A stretch of DNA of 64,000 bases from Streptomyces sp. NBC_01116 (lineage in GTDB: Bacteria > Actinomycetota > Actinomycetes > Streptomycetales > Streptomycetaceae). The notes beneath the pieces were generated by a model. That model was not told the DNA's origin. It saw nothing but the letters and a program-made list of their open reading frames with translations, and searched no databases. Within the stretch, counting starts at the first letter, position 1. Each line of letters opens with the position of its first letter. Position numbers and translations under genes: made by a program. Shown here piece after piece: positions 4,231 through 30,702 of the stretch. Location: NCBI RefSeq assembly GCF_041435495.1, contig NZ_CP108644.1, positions 8,417,501 to 8,481,500 of the forward strand, read 5' to 3'.

Positions 4231-4243
4231 GATCGATTCGATT
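4231..4243. promoter_or_regulatory. Operator-like repeat GATCG-ATT-CGATT
   Basis: Third copy of the GATCG-N3-CGATC element, one mismatch in the right arm, lying 18 bases upstream of the -35-like hexamer of the ABC transporter operon. It links this operon to the lyase/regulator control region. Confidence 0.48.
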
Positions 4244-4260
4244 GATTTGGTCATTTGCTC

Positions 4261-4290
4261 TTGACGGCGATCACTTCCGCGCAAAATGAT
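4261..4290 (+). promoter_or_regulatory. Putative promoter of the ABC sugar operon
   Basis: TTGACG at 4261-4266 and AATGAT at 4285-4290, spaced 18 bases, about 50 bases before the start of the binding-protein gene. The spacer contains CTTCCGCGCAAAAT, which resembles the GC-palindrome in the agaS-like promoter at 10625-10654. Assignment rests on sequence resemblance only. Confidence 0.4.
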
Positions 4291-4342
4291 GTGTGCCGTT
4301 CACCTCATCTCCCGCAGTTCGAGGTCCCGTAGGAGCCGGCCC

Positions 4343-5650
4343 ATGCCCCGTAACGCCCGCACGTCCCGCCTCGCCCTCGCGGCGTCCGCCGCCTCACTCG
4401 CCCTGCTCGCCACCGCCTGCGGCGGCGGATCGGCCTCGGATGCCTCGGGTCCCGGCGACGGCAAGCCCGTCACCCTCACCTTCTGGTCGTCCGCCCTGGG
4501 CGCCAAGGAGACGGCCGACGCGTTCAACAAGTCGCAGACCGGCATCAAGGTCACGTTCTCCCTGGTGCCCGCGGGGCCCGAGGGCGTCACCAAGCTGTCC
4601 AACGCGGTCAAGGGCGGCAACGCCCCCGACGTGGCCACCATGGACTACTCCGCCCTGCCCGAGTACGCCAGCGAGGGCAACCTGGTGGACCTCACGCCCA
4701 GTTCAGGAGAGCTGGTGAAGAAGGAGTTCCCCGAGGCGGTCCAGTCCCTGGTCAACCTCGGCGGCTCCACCTGGGCGGTGCCGTTCGACGTCACGCCCAT
4801 CCAGCTCTTCTACCGCAAGGACCTGTTCACGAAGCACGGCGTCGAGGTGCCGACGACCTGGGCCGAGTACCGCACGGCCGCCGAGAAGATCCACCGGGCC
4901 GACCCCGACGTCACCATCACCAACTTCGGCGGCGGCGACCCCGCCCTGCTCTCCGGCCTCGCCTGGCAGGCCGGCGCCCAGTGGTACGGCACCAGCGGCG
5001 ACGCCTGGAAGGTGAACATCGACGACCCGGCCTCCCGCAAGGTCGCCGCCTACTGGGACGACCTCCTTGGCGACGGCCTCGCCTCCCGGACCCCGCTCTG
5101 GGGCGAGGGCGAGGCCAAGGAGCGCTCCACCGGCAAGGTCGCCACCGTCATCGGCGCCGCCTGGAGCGCTGGGACCTTCCCCGTCAGCTACCCCGACAGC
5201 AAGGGCAAGTGGGGCATAGCGCCCCTGCCCACCTGGGACGGCGAGCCGAGCACCGGCATGTACGGCGGGACCTCCTACATCGTGCCCAAGGGCAGCGAAC
5301 ACACCGAGGCGGCCGCCGAGTTCATCAAGTGGGTCACCACCGACCCCGCGGCCATGACCGCCCGCCTCAGCTCGCTCCAGGCCCCCAGCAGCGCCCTGCC
5401 CGCCAACGAGGGCATGCGCGCCGCGGCGGCGAAGGAGTTCGACACCTCCTACTTCGCCGGCCAGGACGTCTACGCCGTGGCCGGCGAGGCCGCCGACACC
5501 ATCGTGCCCGGCTGGACCTGGGGCCCGGTGCAGCAGCAGGTCGTCTCGGCGCAGATGGCCGCGGGCAGCGACCACACGAAGATGCTCGGCTCCGGTCAGG
5601 CGAAGGGCGAGAGGGCGATCACCGACCGCGGCCTGAAGCTCGACAAGTAG
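4343..5650 (+). CDS. ABC transporter sugar-binding lipoprotein
   Basis: A 435-residue extracellular solute-binding protein (family 1 type). The signal peptide ends in the lipobox LLATAC, so Cys26 should be lipidated and the protein anchored outside the membrane. The body has the usual cluster-B sugar-binding pattern (VTLTFWSSALGAKETADAFN near the N-terminus; GMYGGTSYIVPKGSEHTEAA later). AGGAG lies 7 bases before ATG 4343; an in-frame ATG at 4286 lacks a ribosome site and would spoil the signal peptide. First gene of a four-gene operon with two permeases and a dehydrogenase. No ATPase gene is present, so a shared MsiK-like ATPase is likely, as for most Streptomyces sugar importers. Substrate is probably an oligosaccharide released by the neighbouring lyase (inference). 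Confidence 0.9.
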   Translation: MPRNARTSRLALAASAASLALLATACGGGSASDASGPGDGKPVTLTFWSSALGAKETADAFNKSQTGIKVTFSLVPAGPEGVTKLSNAVKGGNAPDVATMDYSALPEYASEGNLVDLTPSSGELVKKEFPEAVQSLVNLGGSTWAVPFDVTPIQLFYRKDLFTKHGVEVPTTWAEYRTAAEKIHRADPDVTITNFGGGDPALLSGLAWQAGAQWYGTSGDAWKVNIDDPASRKVAAYWDDLLGDGLASRTPLWGEGEAKERSTGKVATVIGAAWSAGTFPVSYPDSKGKWGIAPLPTWDGEPSTGMYGGTSYIVPKGSEHTEAAAEFIKWVTTDPAAMTARLSSLQAPSSALPANEGMRAAAAKEFDTSYFAGQDVYAVAGEAADTIVPGWTWGPVQQQVVSAQMAAGSDHTKMLGSGQAKGERAITDRGLKLDK

Positions 5651-5729
5651 CCGCACGGCTGCCCGGGACACCGTGCCGGGCAGCCCGCGCCCCCTCCCCG
5701 CCCACCCCATCCAGCCGAAGGAGCATCAG

Positions 5730-6731
5730 GTGGCAGCCCCACTCGCCCGGCCGGCCAAGACCTCGGCGCCCCAGGCCGCGCCGCCGCCCGCAGGTCCCGC
5801 CGGTCCGGCCGTCTCCGCCCGACCGGAAAGGCCGGGCGGCCCCGGCACCCGACGCGGACAGCGCCGGGCGGTCGCCCTGTTCACGGTCCCGTTCTTCGCC
5901 CTGTTCACCGCCGTCACGGTCCTGCCGATGATCTACGCGGCCTGGATGAGCCTCTACCGCGAGGAATCCTCCGGTCTGGGATTCGGCGGCACCGAGCGGG
6001 TCTTCGCCGGACTCGGCAACTTCACCGAAGCCCTGGGCAACGAGGCGTTCCTGCGCTCGTTCGGGAACATCGCGTTCTACTGCGCGCTCTACATCCCCGC
6101 GATGGTCGGCGGAGCGCTCGTCCTGGCCCTGCTCGTCGACTCGACCATGGCCCGGGCCCGGCGCTTCTTCCAGATCGCCTACTTCCTGCCGCACGCGGTA
6201 CCCGGCCTGATCGCCTCGCTGATCTGGCTCTACCTCTACACGCCGGGTCTCAGCCCCATCACCGACGCCCTCGACGCGCTCGGCGCCCAGTGGAACTTCT
6301 TCGGCCAGGACGAGGCGATCTTCTCGGTCGTCAACATCTCCGCCTGGCAGTGGACCGGCTACAACATGATCATCTTTTACGCGGGTCTCCAGGCCGTTCC
6401 CCGCGAGGTCCTGGAAGCGGCGACCGTCGACGGCGCCGGAGCCCTGCGCACCGCCCTCCAGGTCAAGATCCCCATGATCCGGCCCACGGTCGTCCTGACC
6501 CTGCTGTTCACCTGCGTCGGCGCCATCCAGCTCTTCGACGCCCCCAAGCTCGTACAACTGCGCGCCAACACCATGGGCGAGGACTGGTCGCCGACCATGT
6601 TCATCTACACCGCGGCCTTCAAGGGCCACGACTACGGCCTGGCCGCCGCGAGCTCCCTCCTGCTCGCCCTCGTCGCCGGACTGCTGTCCTTCGTCGTCAC
6701 CAAGCTCGGCAACCGGTGGAAGGCCTCATGA
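5730..6731 (+). CDS. ABC sugar transporter permease, MalF/UgpA type
   Basis: A 333-residue inner-membrane permease. After a Pro/Ala-rich cytoplasmic N-terminus (about 50 residues) come about six membrane helices (first: VALFTVPFFALFTAVTVLPM). The cytoplasmic EAA loop that docks the ATPase reads EAATVDGAGALRTALQVKIP. The GTG at 5730 is chosen because GGAG lies 6 bases before it; an ATG at 5673 in the same frame would start inside the spacer after the binding-protein gene. The last four bases overlap the next permease (ATGA). Confidence 0.9.
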   Translation: MAAPLARPAKTSAPQAAPPPAGPAGPAVSARPERPGGPGTRRGQRRAVALFTVPFFALFTAVTVLPMIYAAWMSLYREESSGLGFGGTERVFAGLGNFTEALGNEAFLRSFGNIAFYCALYIPAMVGGALVLALLVDSTMARARRFFQIAYFLPHAVPGLIASLIWLYLYTPGLSPITDALDALGAQWNFFGQDEAIFSVVNISAWQWTGYNMIIFYAGLQAVPREVLEAATVDGAGALRTALQVKIPMIRPTVVLTLLFTCVGAIQLFDAPKLVQLRANTMGEDWSPTMFIYTAAFKGHDYGLAAASSLLLALVAGLLSFVVTKLGNRWKAS

Positions 6732-7657
6732 GCACCCAGACAGCCACCCCCGACGCACCGCCCGCGCCGACGCCGCCCCGCCGCGCCGGACGCCGTTCCG
6801 CCCCGCCGCCCGACCGCCGGGGCCGGGGAATCACCTCCCGCGTCATGGTCAACGGCGTCCTCGCCGTCGTCGCCGTCTACACCCTGATGCCGCTGACCTG
6901 GCTCCTGATCGCCTCCACCAAGAGCTACCGGGACCTGTTCGCCACCAACCCGTTCAGCCTCGGCGACTTCCAGTTCCTGGCCAATCTCGACGCCCTCCTC
7001 GCCTACGACGACGGGGTTTTCGTCCGCTGGCTGCTCAACAGCCTCCTGTACACCGTCGTCGCCTCCGGGCTCTCCACCCTCATCTCGGTCGCTTGCGGCT
7101 ACGCCTTCGACACATACGCCTTCCGCGGCCGGGAGAAGTGGTTCGGGGTCGTCCTCGTCGGCGTCCTCATCCCCTCGACCGTCGTCCAGCTCCCGCTCTA
7201 CCTGATGGCCTCCGAACTGGGCCTCGTCAACACCTACTGGGCCGTCCTGATCCCGAGCCTGGTGAACCCGTTCGGCGTCTACCTGGCCCGCGTCTTCTCC
7301 GAGGGGTACGTACCGGGCGAGGTCCTGGAAGCGGCCCGGATGGACGGGGCGGGGGAAGTGCGGACCTTCGTCAAGGTCGCCCTGCCGATGATGGCGCCCG
7401 GCTTCGTGACCATCTTCCTGTTCTCTTTCACCGCGAGCTGGAACAACTTCTACGGCGCGCTCATGATGCTCAACGACGACCGGCTCTACCCGGTCAACCT
7501 GGGCCTCTACATGTGGAACCAGAACGTCTACCAGCAGCCCGAGCTCTACCCGCTGGTCATCATCGGCTCGCTCGTCGCCGTCGTCCCCCTGATCGTCGCC
7601 TTCCTCTGCCTCCAGCGCTTCTGGCGCTCGGGCCTCACCGCAGGAGCCGTCAAGTGA
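6728..7657 (+). CDS. ABC sugar transporter permease, MalG/UgpE type
   Basis: A 309-residue partner permease. It has a short cytoplasmic head rich in Pro/Arg, about six membrane helices, and the EAA loop EAARMDGAGEVRTFVKVALP. The ATG overlaps the previous stop (ATGA), which indicates translational coupling, and its own stop overlaps the GTG of the dehydrogenase gene. Together with the binding protein it forms a carbohydrate importer that lacks an ATPase gene in this operon. Confidence 0.9.
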   Translation: MSTQTATPDAPPAPTPPRRAGRRSAPPPDRRGRGITSRVMVNGVLAVVAVYTLMPLTWLLIASTKSYRDLFATNPFSLGDFQFLANLDALLAYDDGVFVRWLLNSLLYTVVASGLSTLISVACGYAFDTYAFRGREKWFGVVLVGVLIPSTVVQLPLYLMASELGLVNTYWAVLIPSLVNPFGVYLARVFSEGYVPGEVLEAARMDGAGEVRTFVKVALPMMAPGFVTIFLFSFTASWNNFYGALMMLNDDRLYPVNLGLYMWNQNVYQQPELYPLVIIGSLVAVVPLIVAFLCLQRFWRSGLTAGAVK

Positions 7658-10850: not shown

Positions 10851-13800
10851 TCATGAACTCCAGGGGCGTCGGGTGAACATGTCCGGGCCGATGGTGCGGG
10901 TGAGCAGATGCAGGGGCGCTGCGCGGACGCCGGTCGCCTCCGCCGCTTCCCAGTAGGCCAGTCCGGTGGCCGCGTCGACCGTGCCGTGGACGAGCGGTAC
11001 GTCGGCCCCCGAGGCCTGGAGCAGGGACTCCAGCCGGCAGGACGCGACGGTGTCCGGCACCATCGGCTGCGCGAGGTATCCGGCCACCGCGGCGGCCGGG
11101 AGGCCCTCGGCCACCCGCCGCTCCGCCGGGCCGGCGCTCAGCAGCCCGCCGCCCACGACCAGAACGTCCTTCGCCCGTTCCATCCGGCCGATGGCGCGGG
11201 ACGTGTCGAAGCAGTGCGGGAACGAGTCGTCGACCACCGTCGTACCCGGTGCCAGGCGGTCGATGTCCAGGAGTGCGCCGCCCCCGCTGACCGCCGCGAC
11301 GATCAGGCGGGCGTCGTACACGGCGTCGGGCAGCCCATGGTCGGACTCGGCCGACTCGACCACCTCCACGATCTCCACGAGGCCGCGTTCCAGCAGGTTC
11401 TCGGCCAGTTCCTTCAGCCGTGGCCCGCTGCCCGGCACGTCGCAGAGCAGCAGCCGGGCAGGCGGCCGTTGGGCCCTGGTGAGCAGCAACTCCAGCGAGG
11501 AGGAACCGATCGAGCCGAGCCCCACGAACGCGACGGTGAGAGCTTCCAGGTGCTGCCCGGTCGCGCCGAGAGCCGCGTGTACGGTGCTGACGACGGAAAC
11601 GACGGTCGCCGCGTGACCGGTGGTGACGACGGGCGCGGTGGTGACGACGGGCCCGTTATCCGCACTGCCGACGGCCCGCAGGACGTCGAAGCCGTAGCCC
11701 GTGAGCGAGGGGATCATGCCCGCCAGGGAAACGGCCCGCGCACCGAGGGACGAGGCGAGCTCCATTCCCCGCGTGGTGTGCCCGACCAGGGCGTCGCCGG
11801 GGGAGAGTTCGTCCGCGAACAGCGGGACGCACACGAAGCCCGAACCGCCCAGCGGCGTCGTCAGGGTCTCCAGCAGCCGTGGCCGCCCGTCCGGGAACAG
11901 CAGGTTCCGCACCTGCTCGCGCGGCAGCGCCTCCTCGGGCAGACCTGCCAGCCGGGCGAGGTCGGCCGGGGACGGCAGATACCCGATGAGCGCGGCGTCC
12001 AGCGGAGCGTCGAGGCCGGGGCCGTCCGGGTCGCCGAGGCGATCGGGGCCGGGCCGGGGTGCGGCCACCGCGTGCGCCAGCGTGACGCGCATCGAGTCCG
12101 TGAAGGCCGTCAGCCCCTCCTCGGTGAACGCGGTCGCCGCCGCGCGGACGGTGATTCGCAGCCGCCCGCCGTCCGGAACGGCCGCCAGGAACACGTCCGT
12201 ACCGGCCGGTGGCGGGGTGTACACACTGTCGCCGCTCTCCCGGGTGACCGCCAGTGTCCTGCCGCTCTCCGGACCCAGGGCGGAGAAGTCCAGATAGGTG
12301 AAGAAGAACTGCGAGGCCATGGGCAGGCCGTTGGACAGCGCCGGCACGGCCCCCTCGTACGCCCGCGCCTCGGCGGCCTCGGCGGCGACGCGCCGCAGAT
12401 CGTCCTCGAAACCCGCGCTGTCGGACCGCCTCGACGCCGGACCCGCCGGCCGCAGGGGAACGGCCGTGGCGAAGGGACCGAACACCCGGTGTGCGTCGGG
12501 CAGGGAACGGTCCCGGCCGCTCACCGCGAGACCGAGTACCAGATCCGGCCGTCCCGTGGCGGACACGAGGGCCCGGTAGTAGGCGGTGAGCACCGGGGCG
12601 TGGAGGGTGCACCCGGTGCGCGCCGCGAGCTCGCGGAGCGCCGCCACCTGGTCGGCGTCGACCGTGAACCCGCAGGTGCGGAAGAGCGGGCCGGCGTGGC
12701 TGCCCGGAGGGGAGCCGGTGGTGGTCGTCCCGGCGGCGAGCACGGGCGGCCGGTAGGGCGCCCTCAGCCGCGCCCACCGGTCCGCACCGGTCGGGGCGGT
12801 GGGCGTGTCCGTGCGCTCCGCGAGCCGGAGGGCGTGGTCGCGGAAGGAACTGCGCAGGGGGGCCGGGGCCGGTTCCTCGCCGCTGGACAGGGCGTCGTAC
12901 ACGGCCGTCAGCTCCCGTACCAGGAGGGCGGCGCTGTAGCCGTCGCCGATGATGTGGTGGGCGTGTGCCACCAGGACGTGTTCGTCGGGTGCGACGGTGA
13001 GCACCCGCAGGCGCAACAGGGGCCACGCCCAGGGTTCGAAACGGCGGGCCCGTTCGGCGGTGATCCGCTCCTCCACCTGCTCCGGGTCGGTGAGGGTCTC
13101 GAAGTCGACCGGCAGGCGCAGCGAGGACGGAAGCTCCTGCTGGACGGGCGGGCGCGCCCCGGCGGGGAAGACGGTACGGAGCATCGGGTGGCGCCCGACG
13201 AGCGTGTCCACCGCGCCCTGGAAGCGGGCGGTGTCGAGGCGGCCGTGCAGACGCAACCGCGTGAGCCAGGAAGAGGTCGCGCCCGGTGCGATGGCTTCGG
13301 CGAGGAGGAAGCCCCGCTGGGTGGGAGTGAGCGGGAAGGGCGGGGGAGCGGCGGCCGGATCGAGCGTCCCGGTGCGGCCACCGACCGCGTCGCCTTCCCG
13401 GGGCGACGCGTCCGCTGCGGCGTCAAGGGCGTCAGAGGCGTCCACAGCCTTCGGAGCGTCCACGCCGACACCCGTGGCATCCGTGGCATCCGTGGGGTCC
13501 GTGGCGTCCGTGGGGTCCGCGGCGGTGACCTCTGCCGCGTCCACCGCGGAAGCGAGGGCCGCGAGTGTGCGGTTGCGGTAGATGACGGTCGGCCGGGGGA
13601 GCGGACCTCCCTGCTTCTCCAGCCGGGCGAACACTTCCAGCACGAGAAGGGAGTCGCCGCCCAGGACGAAGAAGTCGTCCTCGCGGGACACGCCGTCGGC
13701 CTGGAGCAGGGTGGACCAGATGGCGGCCAGCCGTACTTCGGTGGGAGTGCGGGGCGGTGTACGGACGTCGCCCGCGCGCACGCCGCTGCCGGTGTCCGTG

Positions 13801-16800
13801 TGCGTCCCGTGCGGTTCGGTCGCTTCCTGGAGTGCGGGGAGCCCACGTCGGTCGATCTTGCCCGTGCTGGTGAGCGGCATCCTGTCGACACGGGTGATCC
13901 GGGACGGAAGCATGTACGCGGGCAGAGACTCCGCGAGATGGAGCCGGAGCGCCACGGCATCCGCTCCGGAGGACGCGGGCCCCGGTGTCACGAAGGCGGT
14001 GAGGCGTCCGTTCTCGGCGAGGACGACGGCGTGGGTGACGTCCGGGTGGGTCTGGAGCACCGCCTCGATCTCGCCCGGCTCGACACGGTTGCCCCGGATC
14101 TTCACCTGGTCGTCCAGCCGCCCGAGGAATTCCAGTACGCCGTCCTCGGAACACCGCACCCGGTCGCCGCTGCGGTACCACCGGCGACCACGCCGCACCG
14201 TGAACGCGGCCTCGGTGAGGGCCGGTTCGCCGAGGTAGCCCGCGGTGAGGCCGACTCCGGAGATGAGGAGCTCACCGGGCTCGCCGGGCCGCGCGGGCTC
14301 TCCGTCGGGGCCGACGACCTCCACCTCCGTGCCCGAGACGGGACGGCCGATGGGAAGCCGCCGCACCTGGTCGCCGGGCCGGGCCCGGATGATGTGGCAG
14401 CTCGTGTTGATGGTGGCCTCGGTCGGGCCGTACAGGTTGGCGATGTGCTGGCCGTCGCCGAAGAGGTCGAACCAGCGGCGTACATGGGCGGGTGACAGGG
14501 CCTCGCCGCCGACATGGATCCACCGGAGCGCGGTCAGGTCCGGCACCGGCGCGCCGTTGCGTACGCGTTCCTCGGAAGCGCCGAGGAGCTGTTCCCAGAG
14601 CGTGGGGACGGAGCTCCAGACGGTGATCCCGCTGCGTACGACGTGGGTCAGCAGCCGGTCGGGATCGCGCAGCAGGTCCCAGGCCACGGTGACCACGGTG
14701 GCGCCGACGAGCAGCGGGGCGAGGAGCTGGCGGACGGAGGCGTCGAAGCAGGGCGACGCGGTCTGGGCGAGCCGGTCGCGCTCGGTGTATCCGAAGGTGT
14801 CGATCGCCCAGTCGAGGTAGTTCTCCATCGACCGATGGGTGATGGGCACGGCCTTGGGGCGGCCGGTGGATCCGGAAGTGAAGATCACGTAGGCGATGTC
14901 GTCGGCGACGACCGGGCCGTCGGGTGCGGGCAGTCCGTCCGGCGACGGAACGGAAACGGCGACCCGGTCCGGGCCTCCGGCAGGCTCGGAACCCGCGCCC
15001 CTGGAAGGCGGCGCCGAAGCGTCGACGAACACCAGGGCGACGTCGCCGAGCGCTTCCCCCACGGCACGGGTGGCGTTGTGGCAGAGCACCGTACGGGCGC
15101 CCGAGCGCGTGAGCTGGTCCGTCAGCCGTGCGGTCGGGTGGCCGGCGTCCAGCGGGACCCAGCCCGCCCCGGCGCGCAGGACCGCGACGACCGACACGAC
15201 GGTATCGGCGCCGGGTTCGGTGAGAAGCCCGACGAGGCTTCCCGGGGTGACGCCGCGGGCCAGGAGAGTGGTCGCGAGGACGTGGGAGGCACGGTCGAGT
15301 TCGGCGTACGTCAGGGTGGTGGAGCCGCTGTCGACGGCGACCGCGCCCGGAGTGGCCCGGAACCGCTCGACGAGCCGACGCACGATCGTGGCGGAGGCGG
15401 AGGCGGGTGCGGGGGCGGAACCGTCGTTGGTGCCGGTGCCGGTGCCGGTGCCGTGGACTGGCAGGGGCTCCGTGACGGCCGGGGCGTCGGGCCGAGGCTC
15501 GACGAGTGCGGCCAACTCGTCGTGGAAGTCCCGGTCCAGGCGTGCCACCGTCGCCGGGTCGAAGAGCCGGACGGGGAAGTTCCACGAGAAGCGCAGCACC
15601 GCCTCGTCCTGCCAGCACAGCAGGCTCAGACGGGTCGCGGCGGTGGCGGTGCCGGCCGCGGTCGGCCGCACGCTCACCGGGCAACGCCCGTCGAGAGCGG
15701 CGGGGAAGCGCGAGAAGCTGAAGCCGGCCGGGCTCACGGTCCGGGGGCCGGACCCGGACGGCTCCGACGGCAGCAGCCGGGCCAGGTCCAGGCCGGTGAG
15801 GCTCGCGTGTCGCTCGCTCTCCAGCCAGATCCCCGCCAGCCGCCCGGCGAGCGCCTCCACCGACTCGTCCGGGTCCGTCCGGCAGAGCAGCGGAAGGGTG
15901 TCGGCGAGCGGCCCCACGAGCCGGTCCAGGCCCGCCAGGCGATCGTCCCGCCGGGCGCGGGCGACGTTCACCGCGATCGCCCGCTGCCCGCTCCACCGGG
16001 CCAGACAGCGTACGTGCACGGCGAGCAGCAGATGGAAGAGGCTCACCCCGTGAGCGGCGGCCCGCCTCGTCAACGCGGCGGTCAGCACCGGGTCGAGGGC
16101 ACTCTGACGCGTGGTCATCGGCGCCGCGGGCAGGGCGGAGGGATCACCGTCGTACGGCAGTCGCAGCGGTTCGCCCAGGGATTCCAGCCGCCCCGACCAG
16201 TACCGCCGGTCGGCGGCGAGGGCCCTCACCCCGTCCACGGAGGACCGCTCGTCGGAGGTGGCCGCAGCGTACCGGGCGAAGTCGGTGCCGAGCGCGGGCG
16301 GCGTCGGTGTCTGCCCGTCGGCGAGGGCGGTGTACAGCGACCAGAGTTCCCCGGCGAGGACGTTGAGGCTGTATCCGTCACCGGCCGCGTGGTGGATGAC
16401 CAGGACCAGATGGGACAACTCCGGGTTCTCCCGGGCGAGGAGCGCGCGCACGGGAGGCTCGGCGGAGAGGTCGAACGGCCGGTTGCACAGGGCCTTTTCG
16501 AGCTCCTCGATGCGGCCGCTCAGTTCGCGGACCTCGTACCAGTCGGACAGCGCGGCGGGCGGCGCGACGTACTGCGCCGGCGTCGCCGAGCCGATCCCGT
16601 CCCGCATCCCGTCGTCGGTGCTTCCGGTTCCGGTGCTTCCCGCGCTTTCGATGCGGATCCGGAGCATGCTGTGCCGGTCGGCGAGCGCGGTGAGCGCCCG
16701 GCCCAGGAGCCGGCTGTCCAGGGGGCCCCGGACGGTCTGGCGGACGTAGCCGTGGGCCGGGATGTCCGGGTGGAGCCGACTGCTGGTGTGCAGGGCGAGT

Positions 16801-19800
16801 TGGACGGGGGTGAGCGGGAAGGCGACCCCGTCCGGCGCGGGAGTCGCGGCGGGCGGGAGGGCGCGGGTGGAGTCGGCCGACGGTGCGGGGGAGGGTGTGG
16901 AGTCGAGGTGCGCGGCCAGTTCGGCGATCGTCCGGTACTCGAAGAAGAGCGTGGCGGGCAGCGGCCTGCCCAGCTCCCTTTCGAGCTGCCTGACGAGGTC
17001 GACGGCGGCGAGCGAGTCCAGGCCGAGGGCGAGGAACGGTTCGTCGTCGAGGACCCCGGCGGCAGGCAGACGCAGCGCCGAGGCCAGCAGCCGCCGAAGC
17101 AGCGGCGCGGTGCCGGTACGGGGTCCGGCGCCCGCGCCCGTACTGCTGTCCACCATCGTGCCGATGTGGGGGGCCCGGCCCGAGGGCGCCGGTTCCGTGC
17201 GGGATTCCGTTCCGGGTTCCGTTCCCGTGGATTCCGTCGGCGGGATCGCGCCCGCCGTGCCCGCGGGTCCCGGGGGCGGTGTGAGGTCGGCGATCAGCAG
17301 CTGCGCCGCGTCGATGCCGCACGCCGTACGGAGCGCCGCCAGCGCGGGACCGAGGGCAACGGACCGTCCCCCGGGGCTCCGCACGGTGGCGGAGGCGCCT
17401 CCCGCCCCGGTTCCGAGGGCCGCCGCCATGCCCGTCCCGGTGAGGGCCGCGAGGTTCACCGACTGCCAGGGCTTGCCGGCGTGCCGTTCCGACGCGGCGA
17501 ACGCGTCGAGGAAGGCGTTGGCCGCGGCATAGTCGCCCAGGGCTCCCGCCAGGCCGGGCAGCGCGGCGCTGACGGAGGAGAACGCGACACGGACCGCCGG
17601 GTCGAGCCCGTGCCGGCGCAGGGCCAGCGAGAGCAGCAGACTGCCCCGGGTCTTGGCGGCCAGCGCTTCCGCCGTCTCCTCCGCGCGCCTGTTGCGGAGG
17701 GTCCCTGGCCGCACTGCCCCCGCGGCGTGGAAGAGGCCGTCGAGGCGGGGCAGTCCGGCGAGCAGTGCGTCGACGTCCTGCTCCACCGAGACGTCGGCCA
17801 CGCGGTAGTGGACGGTGGCGCCCAGCGAGCGGAGTTCCTCCGCCAGTCCTGCGGGAGGACGGGGGGAGCGCCCGGCGAGTACGAGGGTGGGGCTGCCCCG
17901 GCCGGCGAGGTCCCGGGCGAGCGCGGCGCCGACTCCGCCACCGCCCCCGGTGATGAGGAAGGTGCCGTCGGCCGGCAGCGGTGACCGCGTCGCCCAATCC
18001 GGTGCTGTCGAGCCGCTCGTCAGCGGTGCGAAACGGCGGGTGAGCCTCCGCCCCGCGCGCCAGGCCACGGTGGCGACCGTGCCCGGCGTGCCGGCGCCCG
18101 ATTTCAGTTCGGTCAGTTCGGCCAGCACGGAGGTGAGGCGCTGGGCCGGGGTGTCCAGTGAGCAGAGGTCGAGGGCGGTGGCAGCGGCGCCCGGAGTCTC
18201 CTGCGGCAGCGCCAGCAGGAGCCCGCCGAGCACGGCGTGGGCCGGCCGGGGCCTCTCCCGCACGGCCCCCGTGGCGTGGACGTCCTCGGTCAACACCAGC
18301 AGCCGGTCCGCGCGTGCCTCGTCGAACCGTGCGAGGGCCTCGCCGAAGGCGGCCAGCGAGGCGTCCTGGGCCCGGCCGAGCGCGTCGGCGGTGTCCTGGA
18401 CGGGAGCGGGACCGGCCACCAGGACCACGGCATCCGGCGGCCCGTCGCCCGCTTCGTACATCCGGACACCCTCGGCGGAGAGCTGCGAGGCCAGCCGGTC
18501 GACGTACGCGGAGTCGGGCCCTGTCAGCAGCACCGAACGCACGGTCGCCGCTGCCGCTGCCGCTGCCGCTGTCGTTGCGGGCAGGGCGGCGTCCTCCCAC
18601 AGGACCTGGTGCAGCAGAGGGCTCGCGGGGGGATCGGCCCAGTAGCGGCTGCGCTGGAAGGGATACGTGGGCAGAGGAATCCGCTGGTGCTCCGCGTCGA
18701 GCGCGGTGCGGTCCAGCGGCACGCCGTGCGACCACAGGCGGCCGATGGTTCCGAGCAGGGCCCCGCGCCCGCCGTGCCCGTCGTCGGGGAGCCGCTCCGC
18801 GTCCGTGCGGCCGTCGGAACGTCCCGGAAGGGCGCACACCACGATCGTTGCGTCGCTGGACAAGCTGGATGTACTGGACGTACCGGACCCGGCGGAGGTG
18901 GTGGGCGTACTGGACGTTCCAGCTCCGCCGACGCGTTCCACCGCTATGCCGGCCGCGTACGCCTCCGTCGTCGCGCGGGCCGCACCCGACAGGGTCGCGC
19001 CGTGGCCGATCTCCACGAACGTGTCGTACCCCTCCCGGGCCAGCCGCTCCACGGCCGCCCCGAACCGCACCGGACGCTCGGCGTGGTCACGCAGGTACTC
19101 CGGGCCGAGGACCGGCTGCCACTCGGCGGTGACGGTGCTCAGGAGGGGAACGGACGGCACCTGCGGGTCCAACGCACGGGCCGCGTCGGCGAGCCGGTCG
19201 GCGACCGGCCGCATCAGCGGTGAATGGAAGGCCCGGGAGACCCGCAGCCGACGCGTGGGGAAGCCCAGCCCTTCGAGGTCGGCGGCGGCGCGCTCCACCG
19301 CACGGACGCCCCCGGAGAGGACCTGGAGCCCCGGACCGTTGTACGCGGCCACGGCGAGCGCCCCGTCGGACTCCACCACCGCCGCGGCGACGGCCTCCTC
19401 ACCCCCGCGCACGGCGATCATGGCTCCAGGCTCGGTGAACGCGCCCATGAGACGGCCGCGTTCGGCTGCGAACCGCACCGCCTCCCCGAGAGTGAGCACC
19501 CCGCTGACACACGCGGCGGTGATCTCCCCGACGCTGTGCCCGGCCACCGCGTCCGGCTCCACGCCCCAGGTGCGCAACTGACGGGCGAGAGCCACCCCGG
19601 AGGCGACGAGGAGCGGCTGCGCCACCTCGGTCGCGGCCTGCGCGGCGGGGTCCGCTTCCAGGTCCAGCGCCCAGTCCAGCAGGGGCCGCCCGTACACCGG
19701 ACCGAGCAGCGCGGACGCCTCGTCGAGCGTGTCCCGGAACACCCGGGCCGTCCGGTACAGCGCCAGGTCCTGGGCGGGGAACTGCGAACCCTGCCCGGGG

Positions 19801-22800
19801 AACAGGAAGACCACGCGCGGCCGGGAGCGGACGAGGCTCCCGACCTGCCCGCCCGCCACTCCCGTTCCCGCGGCGGCGATGGCGGAGAGCCGGTCCCGCA
19901 GGTCACCGTCGGCGATGACGGCGAGCCGGTGGGGCCCATCGTCCCGGGACGTGCTCGCGGTTCGGCAGACGTCGCCCTCGCGCAGAAGCGGACGGCTTTC
20001 CAGGTGCGCGGCGAGCCGGGCCACGGAGTCCCGCAGCGCGCCCGCGCTGCGCGCCGACAGCGTCAGCAGGTGAGGCCCTTCGGCCGCGACTTCACCCGCG
20101 ACACCCGTCGACCGGGCAGCTGGGACGGCAGGGACAGCCGAGGCGGCAGGGACTGCCGAGACAACCGGGGACGCCGGGGGCGGGGCCTGTTCGAGGACGG
20201 CATGGGCGTTGGTGCCGCCGAAGCCGAACGCGTTGATCCCCGCGACGAGGGGCTCGGCGGACGTCCAGTGCCGTGCCTCGGCCACCACGGTGAAACCTGC
20301 GGCGGCGAGGCCAGGAGAGGCTGGGGAGTGGTGCAGCGACGGCGGGAGCCTGCGGTGGCCCAGCGCCAGCACGACCTTCACCAGCGCGGGCAGTGCCGCG
20401 GCGTTCAGCAGATGCCCGATGTTGGTCTTCACCGAACCGAGCAACCGCGGTTCGCCGTCGGGTAGTCCGGGAAAGGCGTGGGCCAGCGAACGCAGCTCGA
20501 TCGGGTCCCCCACGGCCGTGCCGGTCCCGTGGGCCTCCACATAGCTCACCGAGGCGGGATCGACGCCCGCCGCCTCGTACGCCCGGGTGATGACCTCCCG
20601 CTGCCGCAACGGGTTGGGCGCCATGAGGCTCATCGACCGGCCGTCGTTGTTGACGGCCGTGCCCCGGACCACCGCGAGCACCGGATCGCCATTCAGGTGG
20701 GCGGCGTCGAGGCGCGTCAGGACGATGGCCGCGCCGCCCTCGCCGGGCACGAAGCCGTCGGCGTCGGAGCTGAAGGCGCGGCTGCGCCCGGTGGGGGAGA
20801 GGGCCCCCGCTTCTTCCAGCAGCCGGTGCGGGGCCGAGGTCAGGTGGAGGTTGACCCCGCCGATGACGGCGAGGTCGCACTCGCCGTCCAGGAGGCTGCG
20901 CCGGGCCAGGTGCAGAGCCACCAGGCCCGACGAGCAGGCCGTGTCCACCGCGAGCGCGGGACCGTCGAGGTCGAGACTCTGCGAGACCCGGGCGGCGACG
21001 AGGGCCGGCAGGTTTCCGGTGAGCACCCCGGGCAGCGGGGAGCCGTAGCCCGAGGCCCGCTCCAGGACTTCCCGATAGCCGCTGTCCCCGACCGCCGCGA
21101 ACACACCGATCCTGCGACCGCGTCGGCGGGGCCCCGCGTATCCGGCACGTTCGAGGGCCTCGTGCGCGAGTTCCAGGAAGAGCCGGGCCTGCGGGTCGAG
21201 TGCGCGTGCCTCGTCCTCGCCGATGCCGAAGTAGCCGGGGTCGAAAGCGGCCGGATCCTCCAGGAGCGCAGCCCATCGCTTCCGGGGAACTGCCGGAGTC
21301 ATCGGTGTTGCCGGAGCCGCCGGAGCCGAACCCGGTCGGGCATTCGGAAGGTCCTGGCCGTCGTCCCATCGTCCACGTGGTACGGGGGCGACGGCGTCGT
21401 GCCCGTCGACGAGCAGCTCCCAGAAGTCCTCGGGGCTGTCGGCGCCGGGGAACCGGCAGGCCATCCCGATGACGGCCGCGGCGGTGGCGGCACCCTGGGG
21501 CCCGGTCGCGCCCACCGCGGCCGTTCCTCCGGTCCGCCGAGGGCCGCTCTCCAAGGTTTCCGCATCGGAGGCTCCCGTACCTGGCGTCACTGGACCGGGC
21601 ACCACCGTCAGAAGGTGACCGGCCAGCGCGGCCACCGTGCCGTGGTCGCGGATGACCGCCGGCGGCAGTGTCACACCGAAGGCGTCCTCCAGCGCCACCA
21701 GCACCTCCATGGCCTTGAGCGACGTCCCTCCGAGGCTCCCGAACGGCTCGTGCGCCCCGATCGACCCGGCGGGCCGCCCCAGGACCCGTGCCCACGCATC
21801 CCGCACGATCTCGACGGTCTCCGCCCCGCCCCGGGGCGCCGTCGTGGGAGGTTCCGCCGCAGGCCGTGCGGATTCCGCCGGACCGGTCACGGCAGACGCG
21901 CTGCCACCTCCGTCACCCGCGGCGCCCTTCCCCGCCTCCGGCTCACCGGCCCGCCGCTCACCCGACCCGAACGCGCCCTCCTCGAAACGCTCCCGCAGCC
22001 GCCGACGTTGCAGCTTGCCGCTCGTCGTACGCGGAAACGCGCCCGGCGGCACGGCCAGCACCCGCACATCGTCGTGGAGCAGGGCCTCGCGCACCCGGGC
22101 CGCGACGCGTTCGAGTACGTCCGCAGCCTCGCTCGCGGGCCGTGCCCAGGGGACGAACACCACGACGCGCTCAGCACCGGTGACCGGGTCGGTCGACCCG
22201 ACCACCGCCGGGGTGCCGGGAGGGAGTCCGGGCGTCGCGGCCGCGACCTCCTCCATGTCCGTGGCGTGGAAGGTGCGGCCGTTGAGGAACAGCACGTCCT
22301 TGTGCCGGCCCGTGACGCACAGTCGGCCGTCGCGCAGGAACCCGAGATCACCGGTGCGGAGCCATCCCCCGGCGAACACCTCCGCGCTGACGTCGGGAAG
22401 ACGGTGGTAACCACGGGCCAGTTGGGGGCCGCTGACCATGATGTGCCCGGTCCGCCGGTCTCCGAGGACGGTGCCCGCGTCGTCGACGATGCGCACGGCG
22501 CAGCCGGCCACCGGCCGCCCGACGTCCATCAACTCGACGGCCCCATCGCCCGGTTCGGCGTCCACCGCCACGCCGCGGCTCAACGACGCCCGGTCCAGGA
22601 CCAGGGGCTCGGCCACCTCCCCCGGCGGCGGGAAGGTCACCGCCAGCGTCGCCTCCGCCAGGCCGTAGACCGGCTGGGCCGCCGCTGGGTCCAGCCCCGA
22701 AGGCCGGGTCTTGTCGGCGAAGGCACGCCACACCGCGGGCGCGATCGGCTCCGCCCCGACCAGGACCAGCCGCACGGCAGAGAGGTCCAGCCGGGCCAGG

Positions 22801-23588
22801 ACCTCGTCGGGAACACGGCGTACGGCCAGTGCCAGGGCGAAGTTGGCGGCGGACAGCACCGTGGCCCGGTGCCGGGCCGCCACCTCGAACCACAGGCGGG
22901 GCCTCTTGGCGAACGACAGCGGACCGATCTTGACCTGCCGGGCCCGGGCGGCCAGCGGAGCGAGATGGGTGCCGATCAGCCCCATGTCGTGGAAGTACGG
23001 CATCCAGCTGACCACCACGTCGTCGGGGCCCAGCGCCGAAGCGGCCCGTATCTGCTCCAGATTGGCCAGCACCGCGCCGTGCGTCACCTCCACCCCCTTG
23101 GGCGCACCGGTGCTCCCCGAGGAGAACTGCACGAACGCGACGTCGTCGGGCCCGGCGGTGACAGGCTCCCGCAGGACGGGTCCCTCCCGAAGGACATCGA
23201 GGGTCAGGGTGCGTACGGCGCCCGGGAGTTCACCGGTCAGCGACGCCGTCGAGGCGTCCACGACGACGGGCGGCCGCCCCAGGTGCTCCCAGACCGGCAG
23301 CACCCGACGGGCGTCCGGCGCCAGCGGGACCGGAACGAGACCGGCCGCCACCGCACCCCAGAACATCGGCTGGAAGTCCTCGCTGCGGTCGGCGAGCAAC
23401 GGGACACAGGTCCCGGGCGCGACTCCTGCCTCCCGGAAGCCTCCGGCCACGCGCAGGGAGTCGTCCAGGAGCTCGCGCAGGCCGACCGTCAACTCGCCGC
23501 CGTCGCCGCGGACATGCACGACGACCTGCCCGGGAGCCTCACGGACCGCGTCCAGCAGTACATCCAGCAATGTCATGTCGTGTTCCAC
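10851..23588 (-). CDS. Hybrid PKS-NRPS megasynthase FAAL-ACP-KS-AT-KR-ACP-C-A-PCP-C-AAR-like
   Basis: A 4,245-residue assembly line. Domains by motif: fatty acyl-AMP ligase 1-530 (SGSTGAPK 157-164); ACP1 about 595-665 (Ser623); KS about 705-1133 with Cys885, His1020, His1059; AT about 1255-1545 with Ser1352 in GHSVGE and AFHS (His1455), the malonyl-CoA signature; KR about 1650-2055 with TGGGGGVG and Tyr2020; ACP2 (Ser2192); C1 with HHAAGDG 2399-2405; A about 2730-3245 (SGSTGRPK, LYGPTEATIN); PCP (Ser3313); C2 with HHIIGDG 3544-3550; and a C-terminal domain from about 3865. That last part resembles cyanobacterial acyl-ACP reductase: IGYLPS start, GLGSIG nucleotide loop near 4022, and Cys4184 where AAR has its thioester cysteine. 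There is no DH, ER, thioesterase or carrier after C2. Expected product: a beta-hydroxyacyl amino acid released perhaps as aldehyde or alcohol. My reading of the A code (D-A-R-S-I-V-L-I-N) matches nothing I know. Start could also be ATG 23576, which has a GGA about 9 bases upstream. The gene stands alone, with no transporter or PPTase beside it. Confidence 0.92.
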   Translation of the reverse strand: MEHDMTLLDVLLDAVREAPGQVVVHVRGDGGELTVGLRELLDDSLRVAGGFREAGVAPGTCVPLLADRSEDFQPMFWGAVAAGLVPVPLAPDARRVLPVWEHLGRPPVVVDASTASLTGELPGAVRTLTLDVLREGPVLREPVTAGPDDVAFVQFSSGSTGAPKGVEVTHGAVLANLEQIRAASALGPDDVVVSWMPYFHDMGLIGTHLAPLAARARQVKIGPLSFAKRPRLWFEVAARHRATVLSAANFALALAVRRVPDEVLARLDLSAVRLVLVGAEPIAPAVWRAFADKTRPSGLDPAAAQPVYGLAEATLAVTFPPPGEVAEPLVLDRASLSRGVAVDAEPGDGAVELMDVGRPVAGCAVRIVDDAGTVLGDRRTGHIMVSGPQLARGYHRLPDVSAEVFAGGWLRTGDLGFLRDGRLCVTGRHKDVLFLNGRTFHATDMEEVAAATPGLPPGTPAVVGSTDPVTGAERVVVFVPWARPASEAADVLERVAARVREALLHDDVRVLAVPPGAFPRTTSGKLQRRRLRERFEEGAFGSGERRAGEPEAGKGAAGDGGGSASAVTGPAESARPAAEPPTTAPRGGAETVEIVRDAWARVLGRPAGSIGAHEPFGSLGGTSLKAMEVLVALEDAFGVTLPPAVIRDHGTVAALAGHLLTVVPGPVTPGTGASDAETLESGPRRTGGTAAVGATGPQGAATAAAVIGMACRFPGADSPEDFWELLVDGHDAVAPVPRGRWDDGQDLPNARPGSAPAAPATPMTPAVPRKRWAALLEDPAAFDPGYFGIGEDEARALDPQARLFLELAHEALERAGYAGPRRRGRRIGVFAAVGDSGYREVLERASGYGSPLPGVLTGNLPALVAARVSQSLDLDGPALAVDTACSSGLVALHLARRSLLDGECDLAVIGGVNLHLTSAPHRLLEEAGALSPTGRSRAFSSDADGFVPGEGGAAIVLTRLDAAHLNGDPVLAVVRGTAVNNDGRSMSLMAPNPLRQREVITRAYEAAGVDPASVSYVEAHGTGTAVGDPIELRSLAHAFPGLPDGEPRLLGSVKTNIGHLLNAAALPALVKVVLALGHRRLPPSLHHSPASPGLAAAGFTVVAEARHWTSAEPLVAGINAFGFGGTNAHAVLEQAPPPASPVVSAVPAASAVPAVPAARSTGVAGEVAAEGPHLLTLSARSAGALRDSVARLAAHLESRPLLREGDVCRTASTSRDDGPHRLAVIADGDLRDRLSAIAAAGTGVAGGQVGSLVRSRPRVVFLFPGQGSQFPAQDLALYRTARVFRDTLDEASALLGPVYGRPLLDWALDLEADPAAQAATEVAQPLLVASGVALARQLRTWGVEPDAVAGHSVGEITAACVSGVLTLGEAVRFAAERGRLMGAFTEPGAMIAVRGGEEAVAAAVVESDGALAVAAYNGPGLQVLSGGVRAVERAAADLEGLGFPTRRLRVSRAFHSPLMRPVADRLADAARALDPQVPSVPLLSTVTAEWQPVLGPEYLRDHAERPVRFGAAVERLAREGYDTFVEIGHGATLSGAARATTEAYAAGIAVERVGGAGTSSTPTTSAGSGTSSTSSLSSDATIVVCALPGRSDGRTDAERLPDDGHGGRGALLGTIGRLWSHGVPLDRTALDAEHQRIPLPTYPFQRSRYWADPPASPLLHQVLWEDAALPATTAAAAAAAATVRSVLLTGPDSAYVDRLASQLSAEGVRMYEAGDGPPDAVVLVAGPAPVQDTADALGRAQDASLAAFGEALARFDEARADRLLVLTEDVHATGAVRERPRPAHAVLGGLLLALPQETPGAAATALDLCSLDTPAQRLTSVLAELTELKSGAGTPGTVATVAWRAGRRLTRRFAPLTSGSTAPDWATRSPLPADGTFLITGGGGGVGAALARDLAGRGSPTLVLAGRSPRPPAGLAEELRSLGATVHYRVADVSVEQDVDALLAGLPRLDGLFHAAGAVRPGTLRNRRAEETAEALAAKTRGSLLLSLALRRHGLDPAVRVAFSSVSAALPGLAGALGDYAAANAFLDAFAASERHAGKPWQSVNLAALTGTGMAAALGTGAGGASATVRSPGGRSVALGPALAALRTACGIDAAQLLIADLTPPPGPAGTAGAIPPTESTGTEPGTESRTEPAPSGRAPHIGTMVDSSTGAGAGPRTGTAPLLRRLLASALRLPAAGVLDDEPFLALGLDSLAAVDLVRQLERELGRPLPATLFFEYRTIAELAAHLDSTPSPAPSADSTRALPPAATPAPDGVAFPLTPVQLALHTSSRLHPDIPAHGYVRQTVRGPLDSRLLGRALTALADRHSMLRIRIESAGSTGTGSTDDGMRDGIGSATPAQYVAPPAALSDWYEVRELSGRIEELEKALCNRPFDLSAEPPVRALLARENPELSHLVLVIHHAAGDGYSLNVLAGELWSLYTALADGQTPTPPALGTDFARYAAATSDERSSVDGVRALAADRRYWSGRLESLGEPLRLPYDGDPSALPAAPMTTRQSALDPVLTAALTRRAAAHGVSLFHLLLAVHVRCLARWSGQRAIAVNVARARRDDRLAGLDRLVGPLADTLPLLCRTDPDESVEALAGRLAGIWLESERHASLTGLDLARLLPSEPSGSGPRTVSPAGFSFSRFPAALDGRCPVSVRPTAAGTATAATRLSLLCWQDEAVLRFSWNFPVRLFDPATVARLDRDFHDELAALVEPRPDAPAVTEPLPVHGTGTGTGTNDGSAPAPASASATIVRRLVERFRATPGAVAVDSGSTTLTYAELDRASHVLATTLLARGVTPGSLVGLLTEPGADTVVSVVAVLRAGAGWVPLDAGHPTARLTDQLTRSGARTVLCHNATRAVGEALGDVALVFVDASAPPSRGAGSEPAGGPDRVAVSVPSPDGLPAPDGPVVADDIAYVIFTSGSTGRPKAVPITHRSMENYLDWAIDTFGYTERDRLAQTASPCFDASVRQLLAPLLVGATVVTVAWDLLRDPDRLLTHVVRSGITVWSSVPTLWEQLLGASEERVRNGAPVPDLTALRWIHVGGEALSPAHVRRWFDLFGDGQHIANLYGPTEATINTSCHIIRARPGDQVRRLPIGRPVSGTEVEVVGPDGEPARPGEPGELLISGVGLTAGYLGEPALTEAAFTVRRGRRWYRSGDRVRCSEDGVLEFLGRLDDQVKIRGNRVEPGEIEAVLQTHPDVTHAVVLAENGRLTAFVTPGPASSGADAVALRLHLAESLPAYMLPSRITRVDRMPLTSTGKIDRRGLPALQEATEPHGTHTDTGSGVRAGDVRTPPRTPTEVRLAAIWSTLLQADGVSREDDFFVLGGDSLLVLEVFARLEKQGGPLPRPTVIYRNRTLAALASAVDAAEVTAADPTDATDPTDATDATGVGVDAPKAVDASDALDAAADASPREGDAVGGRTGTLDPAAAPPPFPLTPTQRGFLLAEAIAPGATSSWLTRLRLHGRLDTARFQGAVDTLVGRHPMLRTVFPAGARPPVQQELPSSLRLPVDFETLTDPEQVEERITAERARRFEPWAWPLLRLRVLTVAPDEHVLVAHAHHIIGDGYSAALLVRELTAVYDALSSGEEPAPAPLRSSFRDHALRLAERTDTPTAPTGADRWARLRAPYRPPVLAAGTTTTGSPPGSHAGPLFRTCGFTVDADQVAALRELAARTGCTLHAPVLTAYYRALVSATGRPDLVLGLAVSGRDRSLPDAHRVFGPFATAVPLRPAGPASRRSDSAGFEDDLRRVAAEAAEARAYEGAVPALSNGLPMASQFFFTYLDFSALGPESGRTLAVTRESGDSVYTPPPAGTDVFLAAVPDGGRLRITVRAAATAFTEEGLTAFTDSMRVTLAHAVAAPRPGPDRLGDPDGPGLDAPLDAALIGYLPSPADLARLAGLPEEALPREQVRNLLFPDGRPRLLETLTTPLGGSGFVCVPLFADELSPGDALVGHTTRGMELASSLGARAVSLAGMIPSLTGYGFDVLRAVGSADNGPVVTTAPVVTTGHAATVVSVVSTVHAALGATGQHLEALTVAFVGLGSIGSSSLELLLTRAQRPPARLLLCDVPGSGPRLKELAENLLERGLVEIVEVVESAESDHGLPDAVYDARLIVAAVSGGGALLDIDRLAPGTTVVDDSFPHCFDTSRAIGRMERAKDVLVVGGGLLSAGPAERRVAEGLPAAAVAGYLAQPMVPDTVASCRLESLLQASGADVPLVHGTVDAATGLAYWEAAEATGVRAAPLHLLTRTIGPDMFTRRPWSS

Positions 23589-28713: not shown

Positions 28714-29904
28714 ATGGGCGCTGCGCGGGGCGGCCGCCGTCCGGGGCCGCTCCTCATCGCGCGACGCACGGCCCGAGGCGAAAGCGACCTGCCTGTGGCC
28801 ACGTCCCTCGACCGCATACCCTCCAAGCCGTCGCGCCCCGCGCACCTCGGCACCGGACCGGCGCCACCCCGGCGCGTGCCCCTGCCGTTCCTCCTTGCCG
28901 GCCTGTGCGCGGCCCTGCCCCTCTCCCTCGTCTGCGGAGCGGCACTCGGGGCGTCGGGGCTCTCCTGGTCGGAGGTGACGCGCTATCTGTGGGCAGGGCT
29001 GGCCGGCGGAGCCATCGGCCCCGACGAGGTCCCGGGCTACACCATCGTCTGGGAACTGCGCCTGCCACGGGCCGTGCTGGCCGCCGTCGTCGGGGCCGGC
29101 CTGTCCGCCATCGGCGTCGCCGTCCAGGCCATGGTGCGCAACGCGCTGGCCGACCCGTTCGTGCTCGGCATCTCCTCGGGCGCGGCGGTCGGCGCCAACG
29201 CCGTGCTCATCTTCGGGACGTTGGGAGCGCTGGGCATCTGGGCCCTGTCCACGGCGGCGTTCCTCTCCGCACTCCTCGCCATGCTGCTCGTGTACGCGAT
29301 CGCCCGCACCGAACGCGGACTGACCCCGCTCCGGCTCGTCCTGACGGGCACCGCGATGTACTACGGCTTCTCCGCCGTGACCACGTTCATGGTGTTCGCG
29401 GCCGAGCGCGGGGAAGCGGCCCGCTCGGCGATGATGTGGCTGCTCGGCAGCCTGAGCGGGGCCAACTGGGCCGCCGTGCCGATCGCCGCCGGAGCGGTGC
29501 TCGCCGGCCTCGCGCATCTCTGCTGGTCGGCACGGCGCCTGAACGCCCTCGCCATGGGGGACGAGACCGCCGCCGCCCTCGGGGTCGATCCCGGGAGGCT
29601 GCGCAAGGAGCTCTTCCTCGTCTCCGCGGCCGTGACCGGGGCGGTGGTCGCGGTGAGCGGGGCGATCGGCTTCGTCGGCCTGATGGTCCCGCACGCCGCA
29701 CGGATGCTGGTCGGCGCGGACCACCGCCGGCTCCTGGCCGTCGCACCCCTGGCGGGAGCCGTCCTGCTGATCTGGGTGGACATCCTCTCGCGCGTGGTGC
29801 TGGCGCCGGCCGAGCTGCCGGTGGGCGTCCTCACCGCGGTCATCGGCGTTCCCTGCTTCCTCCTCCTCATGCGCCGGCGCGCCTACTCCTTCGGAGGCAT
29901 CTGA
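28714..29904 (+). CDS. btuC: Vitamin B12 ABC importer permease
   Basis: A FecCD-family membrane permease (396 residues from ATG 28714; 369 from GTG 28795). About nine or ten membrane helices begin near VPLPFLLAGLCAALPLSLVC; ADPFVLGISSGAAVGANAVL and GFVGLMVPHAARMLVG are the family signatures. Neither start has a good ribosome site, and the first 27 codons of the longer form may be leader RNA. The riboswitch immediately upstream indicates cobalamin rather than siderophore as substrate. Its stop overlaps the ATPase start (TGATG). Confidence 0.88.
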   Translation: MGAARGGRRPGPLLIARRTARGESDLPVATSLDRIPSKPSRPAHLGTGPAPPRRVPLPFLLAGLCAALPLSLVCGAALGASGLSWSEVTRYLWAGLAGGAIGPDEVPGYTIVWELRLPRAVLAAVVGAGLSAIGVAVQAMVRNALADPFVLGISSGAAVGANAVLIFGTLGALGIWALSTAAFLSALLAMLLVYAIARTERGLTPLRLVLTGTAMYYGFSAVTTFMVFAAERGEAARSAMMWLLGSLSGANWAAVPIAAGAVLAGLAHLCWSARRLNALAMGDETAAALGVDPGRLRKELFLVSAAVTGAVVAVSGAIGFVGLMVPHAARMLVGADHRRLLAVAPLAGAVLLIWVDILSRVVLAPAELPVGVLTAVIGVPCFLLLMRRRAYSFGGI

Positions 29905-30686
29905 TGCGGATCGACATCGACGCGCTCACCGTCGAGATCGCCGGTGCACGGCTGGTCAACCAGGTCACCCTGGGCGCGGCCGACGGCCAGCTCGTCGGCC
30001 TGGTCGGTCCCAACGGCAGCGGGAAGTCGACCCTGTTGCGCTGCGTCTACCGGGCCCTGCGCCCTTCGGCGGGCGCCGTCAGGATCGGTGGTGAGGACCT
30101 TCACGCCCTGAGCACCCGGGAAGGCGCCCGGCGGCTGGCCGCCCTTCCGCAGGACGCGGTCGCCGAATTCGACTTCACCGTCGCCGAGATCGTCGCCATG
30201 GGGCGGCTGCCGCACCAGGGGCCCGTCGCCCGGGCGTCCGACGAGGACCGCCGCCTCTGCGACGAGGCGCTGGCGGGGGTCGGCGCGGGACACCTTGCCG
30301 AACGCGGCTTCCTCACCCTCTCCGGCGGCGAGCGGCAGCGCGTCCTGATCGCGCGCGCCCTCGCCCAGCAGCCCCGGGTCCTGGTGCTCGACGAACCCAC
30401 CAACCACCTGGACATCGCGCACCAGTTGGAGGTCCTCGCCCTGGTCCGCGGCAGCGGCCTGACCGTCCTCACCGCCCTGCACGACCTGAATCTGGCGGCC
30501 CTGCACTGCGACCTGGTCCACGTCATCGACCGCGGCCGGATCGTCGCCTCCGGTTCCCCGCACGCGGTCCTGACCACCGAGCTGCTGGCCGACGTCTTCG
30601 GTGTACGGGCGCACCGCGTCGCACATCCGGAGACCGGCGCGCTCCAACTGCTCTTCGACCTTGCCTCTGCCCGTCCCACCTCCTGA
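29904..30686 (+). CDS. btuD: Vitamin B12 ABC importer ATPase
   Basis: A 260-residue ATP-binding protein: Walker A GPNGSGKST (about 38-46), signature LSGGERQR, Walker B VLVLDEPTNHLD and the switch His in TALHDLNLAAL. It overlaps the permease gene by one base (TGATG) and precedes the binding protein by 16 bases. FepC/BtuD subfamily; the riboswitch at the head of the operon sets the substrate as cobalamin. Confidence 0.9.
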   Translation: MRIDIDALTVEIAGARLVNQVTLGAADGQLVGLVGPNGSGKSTLLRCVYRALRPSAGAVRIGGEDLHALSTREGARRLAALPQDAVAEFDFTVAEIVAMGRLPHQGPVARASDEDRRLCDEALAGVGAGHLAERGFLTLSGGERQRVLIARALAQQPRVLVLDEPTNHLDIAHQLEVLALVRGSGLTVLTALHDLNLAALHCDLVHVIDRGRIVASGSPHAVLTTELLADVFGVRAHRVAHPETGALQLLFDLASARPTS

Positions 30687-30702
30687 AGGAGCCTCGACCA
30701 CC

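Follow-up and report, generated by a model that had tools for sequence, protein, structure and literature searches.

Carmabin A carries an amide at its C-terminus (PMC6164609), and the carmabin synthetase ends in a terminal nonribosomal peptide synthetase (NRPS) domain, the TAD, an abbreviation that we read as terminal amidation domain. The structures of this domain (PDB 9e4s, 9e4u, 9e4x, 9e50, 9e56) contain NAD or NADH, and Cys2238 is found in a disulfide with dephospho-CoA. In the vatiamide and hectoramide assembly lines, the peptidyl carrier protein (PCP) of VatR and HcaD is followed by a domain that is believed to release the product via terminal amidation and that is possibly related to the carmabin domain, and the mechanism of terminal amidation had, according to the same report, not been studied (PMC10949194). 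Relatives in the same superfamily are the acyl-ACP reductases (AAR; TIGR04058, PDB 6jzq-6jzz) and the thioester-reductase part of PigE (NF053554, PDB 4ppm). With regard to the loading of the chain, the systems to compare are the lipopeptide synthetases of the polyketide synthase (PKS)-NRPS type that are primed by a fatty-acyl-AMP ligase (FAAL). The gene described here shares with them the FAAL-ACP loading, one PKS module and a C-A-PCP module, and differs from them in being a single gene without partner genes and in ending with a condensation domain and a TAD-like domain.

The window, a stretch of 64,000 nucleotides from Streptomyces sp. NBC_01116, contains on its minus strand an open reading frame of 4,245 aa that extends from a GTG start at 23588 to a stop at 10851 without any internal stop, and the GC content by codon position (0.77/0.57/0.89) has the pattern of a coding high-GC gene. 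The single gene that a first-pass annotation had placed at 10851-23588 is thus recovered with exactly these coordinates as one uninterrupted frame, and its domain order is borne out by the Pfam matches, which follow each other as AMP-binding, PP-binding, KS (N- and C-terminal parts), AT, KR, PP-binding, condensation, AMP-binding, PP-binding and condensation (two AMP-binding, three PP-binding and two condensation domains in total). Including a C-terminal Rossmann domain, the full string FAAL-ACP-KS-AT-KR-ACP-C-A-PCP-C-Rossmann lies in one frame, with the following features:

10851-23588, minus strand: whole assembly-line gene, 4,245 aa; a single open reading frame in homologous loci too
21909-23588, minus strand: FAAL, residues 1-560; AMP-binding, top matches are solved FAALs
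21594-21821, minus strand: ACP1, residues 590-665; phosphopantetheine Ser within LGGTSL
20331-21476, minus strand: KS, residues 705-1086; Cys of DTACSS, His of EAHGTGT and KTNIGHL; Cys invariant in 85 homologues
18933-19811, minus strand: AT, residues 1260-1552; GHSVGE and AFHS
17259-18671, minus strand: KR, residues ~1640-2110; GGGGGVG, with K, S, Y and N present
16884-17141, minus strand: ACP2, residues 2150-2235; LGLDSL
15489-16781, minus strand: first condensation domain (C1), residues 2270-2700; HHAAGDG
13824-15386, minus strand: A domain, residues 2735-3255; code DARSIVLINK
13539-13766, minus strand: PCP, residues 3275-3350; LGGDSL
12045-13346, minus strand: second condensation domain (C2), residues 3415-3848; HHIIGDG, no A-PCP downstream
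10854-12041, minus strand: C-terminal domain of the TAD/AAR superfamily, residues 3850-4245; assigned by profile, fold and motif matches
11505-11522, minus strand: GLGSIG dinucleotide motif; invariant in 85 copies
11430-11447, minus strand: LCDVPG, after GLGSIG; its Asp suggests NAD(H)
11208-11231, minus strand: DDSFPHCF motif; common to the carmabin TAD, absent from AAR-like proteins
11037-11039, minus strand: Cys4184 in ASCRLESLL; predicted catalytic Cys, kept in 85 of 85

The N-terminal ligase matches solved fatty-acyl-AMP ligases (3pbk at 6e-68, and also FadD23, FadD28 and FadD32), and these closest relatives of known structure identify it as a true FAAL. The GHSVGE and AFHS motifs of the AT are those of the malonyl type. 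Neither a DH nor an ER domain could be found in the frame, and given a KR with K, S, Y and N in place, a 3-hydroxyacyl chain is to be expected. With its FAAL-ACP start and its intact KS-AT-KR-ACP and C-A-PCP modules, the frame is, by sequence, a FAAL-primed type I PKS-NRPS hybrid. Across 85 aligned copies, the KS Cys, the AT Ser, the KR Tyr, the carrier serines, the HHxxxDG motifs of both C1 and C2 and the motifs of the C-terminal domain are invariant, and the A domain code reads DARS(I/V)VL(I/V)NK in 83 of the 84 copies in which it is readable, the single exception being DARSILLVNK. The earlier claims of intact active sites, of the code D-A-R-S-I-V-L-I-N, and of one malonyl extension with ketoreduction followed by one amino acid all agree with the complete domain set and the conserved residues. 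The same annotation had named an inactive A or KS domain, or a known cluster of the same architecture, as what would speak against it; the KS Cys is invariant and the A code constant, and we found no match to the product or the architecture in the open-licence literature. As the code is constant and the catalytic sites are invariant, the product of the assembly line is most probably of the same kind throughout the family, perhaps with a chain length that varies between copies. We know of no match to DARSIVLINK among known A domain codes; Arg239, which is kept together with Asp235, weakly suggests an amino acid with an acidic or otherwise anionic side chain.

The rarity that the first-pass annotation had implied turned out to be wrong. 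The terminal domain is present in 48 of 295 genomes of an even sample of the genus Streptomyces, and C2 in 63 of 392 Streptomyces genomes at a threshold of E<=3e-80, with the next condensation domains far weaker at about 1e-47, so that about 16% of the sampled Streptomyces genomes, or roughly one in six, carry the assembly-line gene. Nearly all copies consist of one open frame with a length of about 3,700 to 4,750 aa, and those below that length are mostly contig ends or broken genes; in the one genus sample that was tabulated, 38 of the 43 larger matches are long open frames. In a species collection, the gene was also found in Nonomuraea, Microtetraspora and one Nocardioidaceae bin, and one annotated copy resides on a megaplasmid of Streptomyces fungicidicus, while outside Streptomyces a phylum-wide sample yielded, apart from other Rossmann enzymes, only single AAR-like proteins of distant similarity. 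The gene is real, intact and widespread. That it could be a decaying relic without a product, as might be thought from the broken or fragmentary copies in several other genomes, is very improbable in view of the long open frames of the window copy and of these 38 matches, and of the invariant catalytic residues and A code.

The window, 20 other loci and one annotated record all bear out the statement that the gene has no adjoining biosynthetic partner. The neighbours change from clade to clade: when those of 21 loci were clustered, the best group reached 8 of the 21 genomes and none kept a fixed position beside the gene across clades, and when 69 near neighbours from 15 loci were tallied by Pfam family, none occurred more than four times. 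Close relatives of the window share neighbours, which reflects common chromosome order, and the genes that flank the S. fungicidicus megaplasmid copy have no evident link to the assembly line. With no conserved neighbour, the assembly line stands alone. A coupled gene at an ATGA overlap was considered and rejected, as the window has no more there than a frame of 67 codons, which the family does not share. Near the assembly line, the window also contains a likely metal-siderophore uptake pair, a FecCD permease (28714-29904) and a periplasmic binding protein (30601-31725); iron-uptake genes were rejected as part of a cluster because the FecCD and binding-protein families do not recur in the near-neighbour tally. 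At 154-7657, a locus that likely serves the uptake and breakdown of a sugar polymer comprises a gene for a family 8 polysaccharide lyase, a regulator of the LacI/DeoR type, two permeases and a solute-binding protein.

The last ~395 aa of the protein had no Pfam match. In a search with a profile made from 41 copies of this domain, the chains of the carmabin TAD come out best (6e-57), followed by PigE (6e-8) and cyanobacterial AAR (1e-4). The predicted structure of the domain (mean pLDDT 87.7) matches the fold of the carmabin TAD over its full length (Z 44.1, 370 residues, rmsd 2.6, 29% identity) and that of AAR at a Z of about 27 with 20% identity, and Foldseek agrees with this. TTGH, GxGSxG, an Asp after beta-2 and DDSxP are common to the family, the TAD and two stand-alone Streptomyces relatives, and the carmabin TAD shares them in the forms TTGH, GLGSxG, NAD-type Asp and DDSxPHCF, together with the Cys, whereas AAR-like proteins from other Actinomycetota have TTGN or TTGS, GATGSIG or variants with an extra residue that GxGSxG does not have, mostly Arg, and CDVAxP-type motifs. 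In a phylogenetic tree, the TAD-type set is split from the AAR-like proteins at 100/100, although long branches lead to the TAD and to several other entries. The NAD-type Asp and the Cys are kept in all 85 family members, and by counting residues in the alignment, Cys4184 would correspond to Cys2238 of the carmabin TAD. Cys4184 and a GxGxxG motif are also present in the alignment with the AAR-like relatives, as candidates for the catalytic Cys (C294) and the dinucleotide site of true AAR, and a CxxE motif is common to the family and these AAR-like proteins and missing from the carmabin TAD. The AAR profile TIGR04058 (cut-off 449.7 bits) matched neither the window domain nor, in a search of the whole host genome, any other protein, and the best of the 41 members reached E 7.8e-7. 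The PigE profile NF053554 matches 40 of the 41 members; PigE is a superfamily relative of weak similarity, and its aminotransferase is absent here. From profile, fold and motifs, the C-terminal domain is assigned to the TAD branch of the acyl-ACP-reductase superfamily, closer to the TAD than to true AAR. Because a condensation domain lies between the PCP and the terminal domain in the window and in the 85 aligned homologues, and the terminal domain does not directly follow the PCP as it does in HcaD, we class it as TAD-like and not as a TAD; compared with the carmabin line, moreover, its host is a single FAAL-PKS-NRPS gene.

Stand-alone relatives of the C-terminal domain occur in other settings. 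One TAD-like protein adjoins a KAS III gene (L180:2038-11875, G251:C4); nearby are a KS, a FAAL-like ligase, an ACP and also an enzyme that handles ammonia and NAD, a glutamine-dependent NAD+ synthetase. In the vicinity of another (L179:3030-11512, G065) there are two AMP-ligases, a PLP enzyme, an FAD oxidoreductase and a protein of the GCV_T type. On a plasmid of Pantoea stewartii (L195:4330-18822), the gene of a TAD-like "hypothetical protein" has a MupA/Atu3671 luciferase-like monooxygenase on one side and two NRPS genes on the other, and a KS gene lies upstream. Small-genome Actinomycetota encode stand-alone AAR-like proteins with GATGSIG and CDVARP/CDVAQP-type motifs (L155, L157, L159, L161, L167, L172), and the AAR-like proteins of L172 and L173 have an additional N-terminal part. 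Pieces of the assembly line itself are found as isolated FAAL or C-terminal remnants (L181, L182, L183, L184) and as a broken remnant with a large internal deletion (L111).

How does this domain release the chain? The first-pass annotation had predicted a 3-hydroxyacyl amino acid that ends as an aldehyde or alcohol; the 3-hydroxyacyl amino acid part is supported, and the ending is not secured, given the TAD-type hallmarks and the closer similarity to the carmabin TAD. By analogy, since the terminal domain is carmabin-like and carmabin has an amide end, a primary amide is at least as likely as an aldehyde or alcohol, and we modestly rank it above the aldehyde. Counting against the amide, no ammonia source is encoded beside the gene, the CxxE motif is absent from the carmabin TAD, and HcaD as described has no condensation domain between its PCP and its terminal domain. 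Moreover, the NAD or NADH in the TAD crystals makes a redox step possible. A real possibility is a reductive release as in cyanobacterial AAR or the N-terminal part of PigE, in which the acyl group would be transferred to Cys4184 and reduced by NADH to an N-acyl amino-aldehyde that may be further reduced or cyclised. The common superfamily and fold (AAR at Z 27), the matches of the PigE and AAR profiles to family members, the invariant dinucleotide motif and Cys, and the CxxE as in AAR-like proteins are in line with such a reduction, but true AAR is the more distant relative, the matches to the AcACP_reductase profile are far under its cut-off, and the family has the TAD motifs in place of the AAR-like TTGN, GATGSIG, CDVARP and the Arg that follows beta-2. 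True AAR also differs in having an NADP-type site where the family has an NAD-type one, and the fusion to an assembly line is found here, not in AAR.

The role of C2 was not accounted for in the earlier interpretation, as no A-PCP follows it. Its catalytic HH and GDG are intact in 85 of 85 homologues, and its position at the end of the line after the PCP fits a terminal (release) condensation domain, with a fold search that leaves the subtypes unseparated. The best sequence match of C2 is a C domain of PvdL, and its predicted fold (pLDDT 74.5) is best matched by the CT domain of HtmB2, with a small lead over ordinary C domains; the enacyloxin release domain is also in the list, and only a few orders of magnitude separate the elongation C domains of Txo2, DhbF and surfactin from the top scores. 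Possible roles of C2 are to commit the chain, to couple it to a soluble amine, or to turn it into a dimer or a ring via the 3-hydroxyl. That C2 is itself the off-loading catalyst, which would couple the PCP-bound chain to a soluble amine or, through the 3-hydroxyl, to a second chain, or would close a ring, with a TAD-like domain that acts afterwards or supplies a partner, is unlikely. The conserved HHxxxDG, the separate clade that C2 forms and the HtmB2 and enacyloxin folds would suit such a catalyst, but elongation C domains score almost as well, the NAD(H) domain that handles thioesters would be redundant behind such a C2, and genes for a trans-acting A domain, a PCP or amine formation are not conserved nearby (20 other loci; 69 near neighbours). 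Our guess is rather that C2 guides or commits the chain for release.

Taken together, we tentatively favour, at close to even balance, a self-contained hybrid PKS-NRPS for one small lipo-amino acid, with primary amide release most likely and an aldehyde second. In this pathway, the FAAL would adenylate a fatty acid and load it onto ACP1, KS-AT would extend the chain by one malonyl unit, and the KR would leave a 3-hydroxyacyl chain on ACP2, which C1 would couple to the amino acid that is selected by the A domain and fixed across the family. From the PCP, the 3-hydroxyacyl-aminoacyl thioester would then move past C2 and reach the C-terminal domain, in which the acyl group would be transferred to Cys4184 next to the bound NAD(H), and the product would, in analogy to carmabin, be released as a primary amide. 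That C2 and the TAD-like domain form a new release unit, in which C2 commits the thioester and an NAD(H)-dependent Cys domain converts it to the primary amide, is a further step that we consider rather unlikely. If it is true, a single gene in about one in six Streptomyces species would make a lipo-aminoacyl amide, perhaps a signal or a surface-active compound. As a single gene is easy to delete or express, the question of the product is directly testable, and the product would reveal how a TAD-like domain off-loads and what the preceding C domain does. A one-gene line that extends from Streptomyces into the Streptosporangiaceae and keeps its amino-acid code constant can be expected to make a small metabolite that is common.
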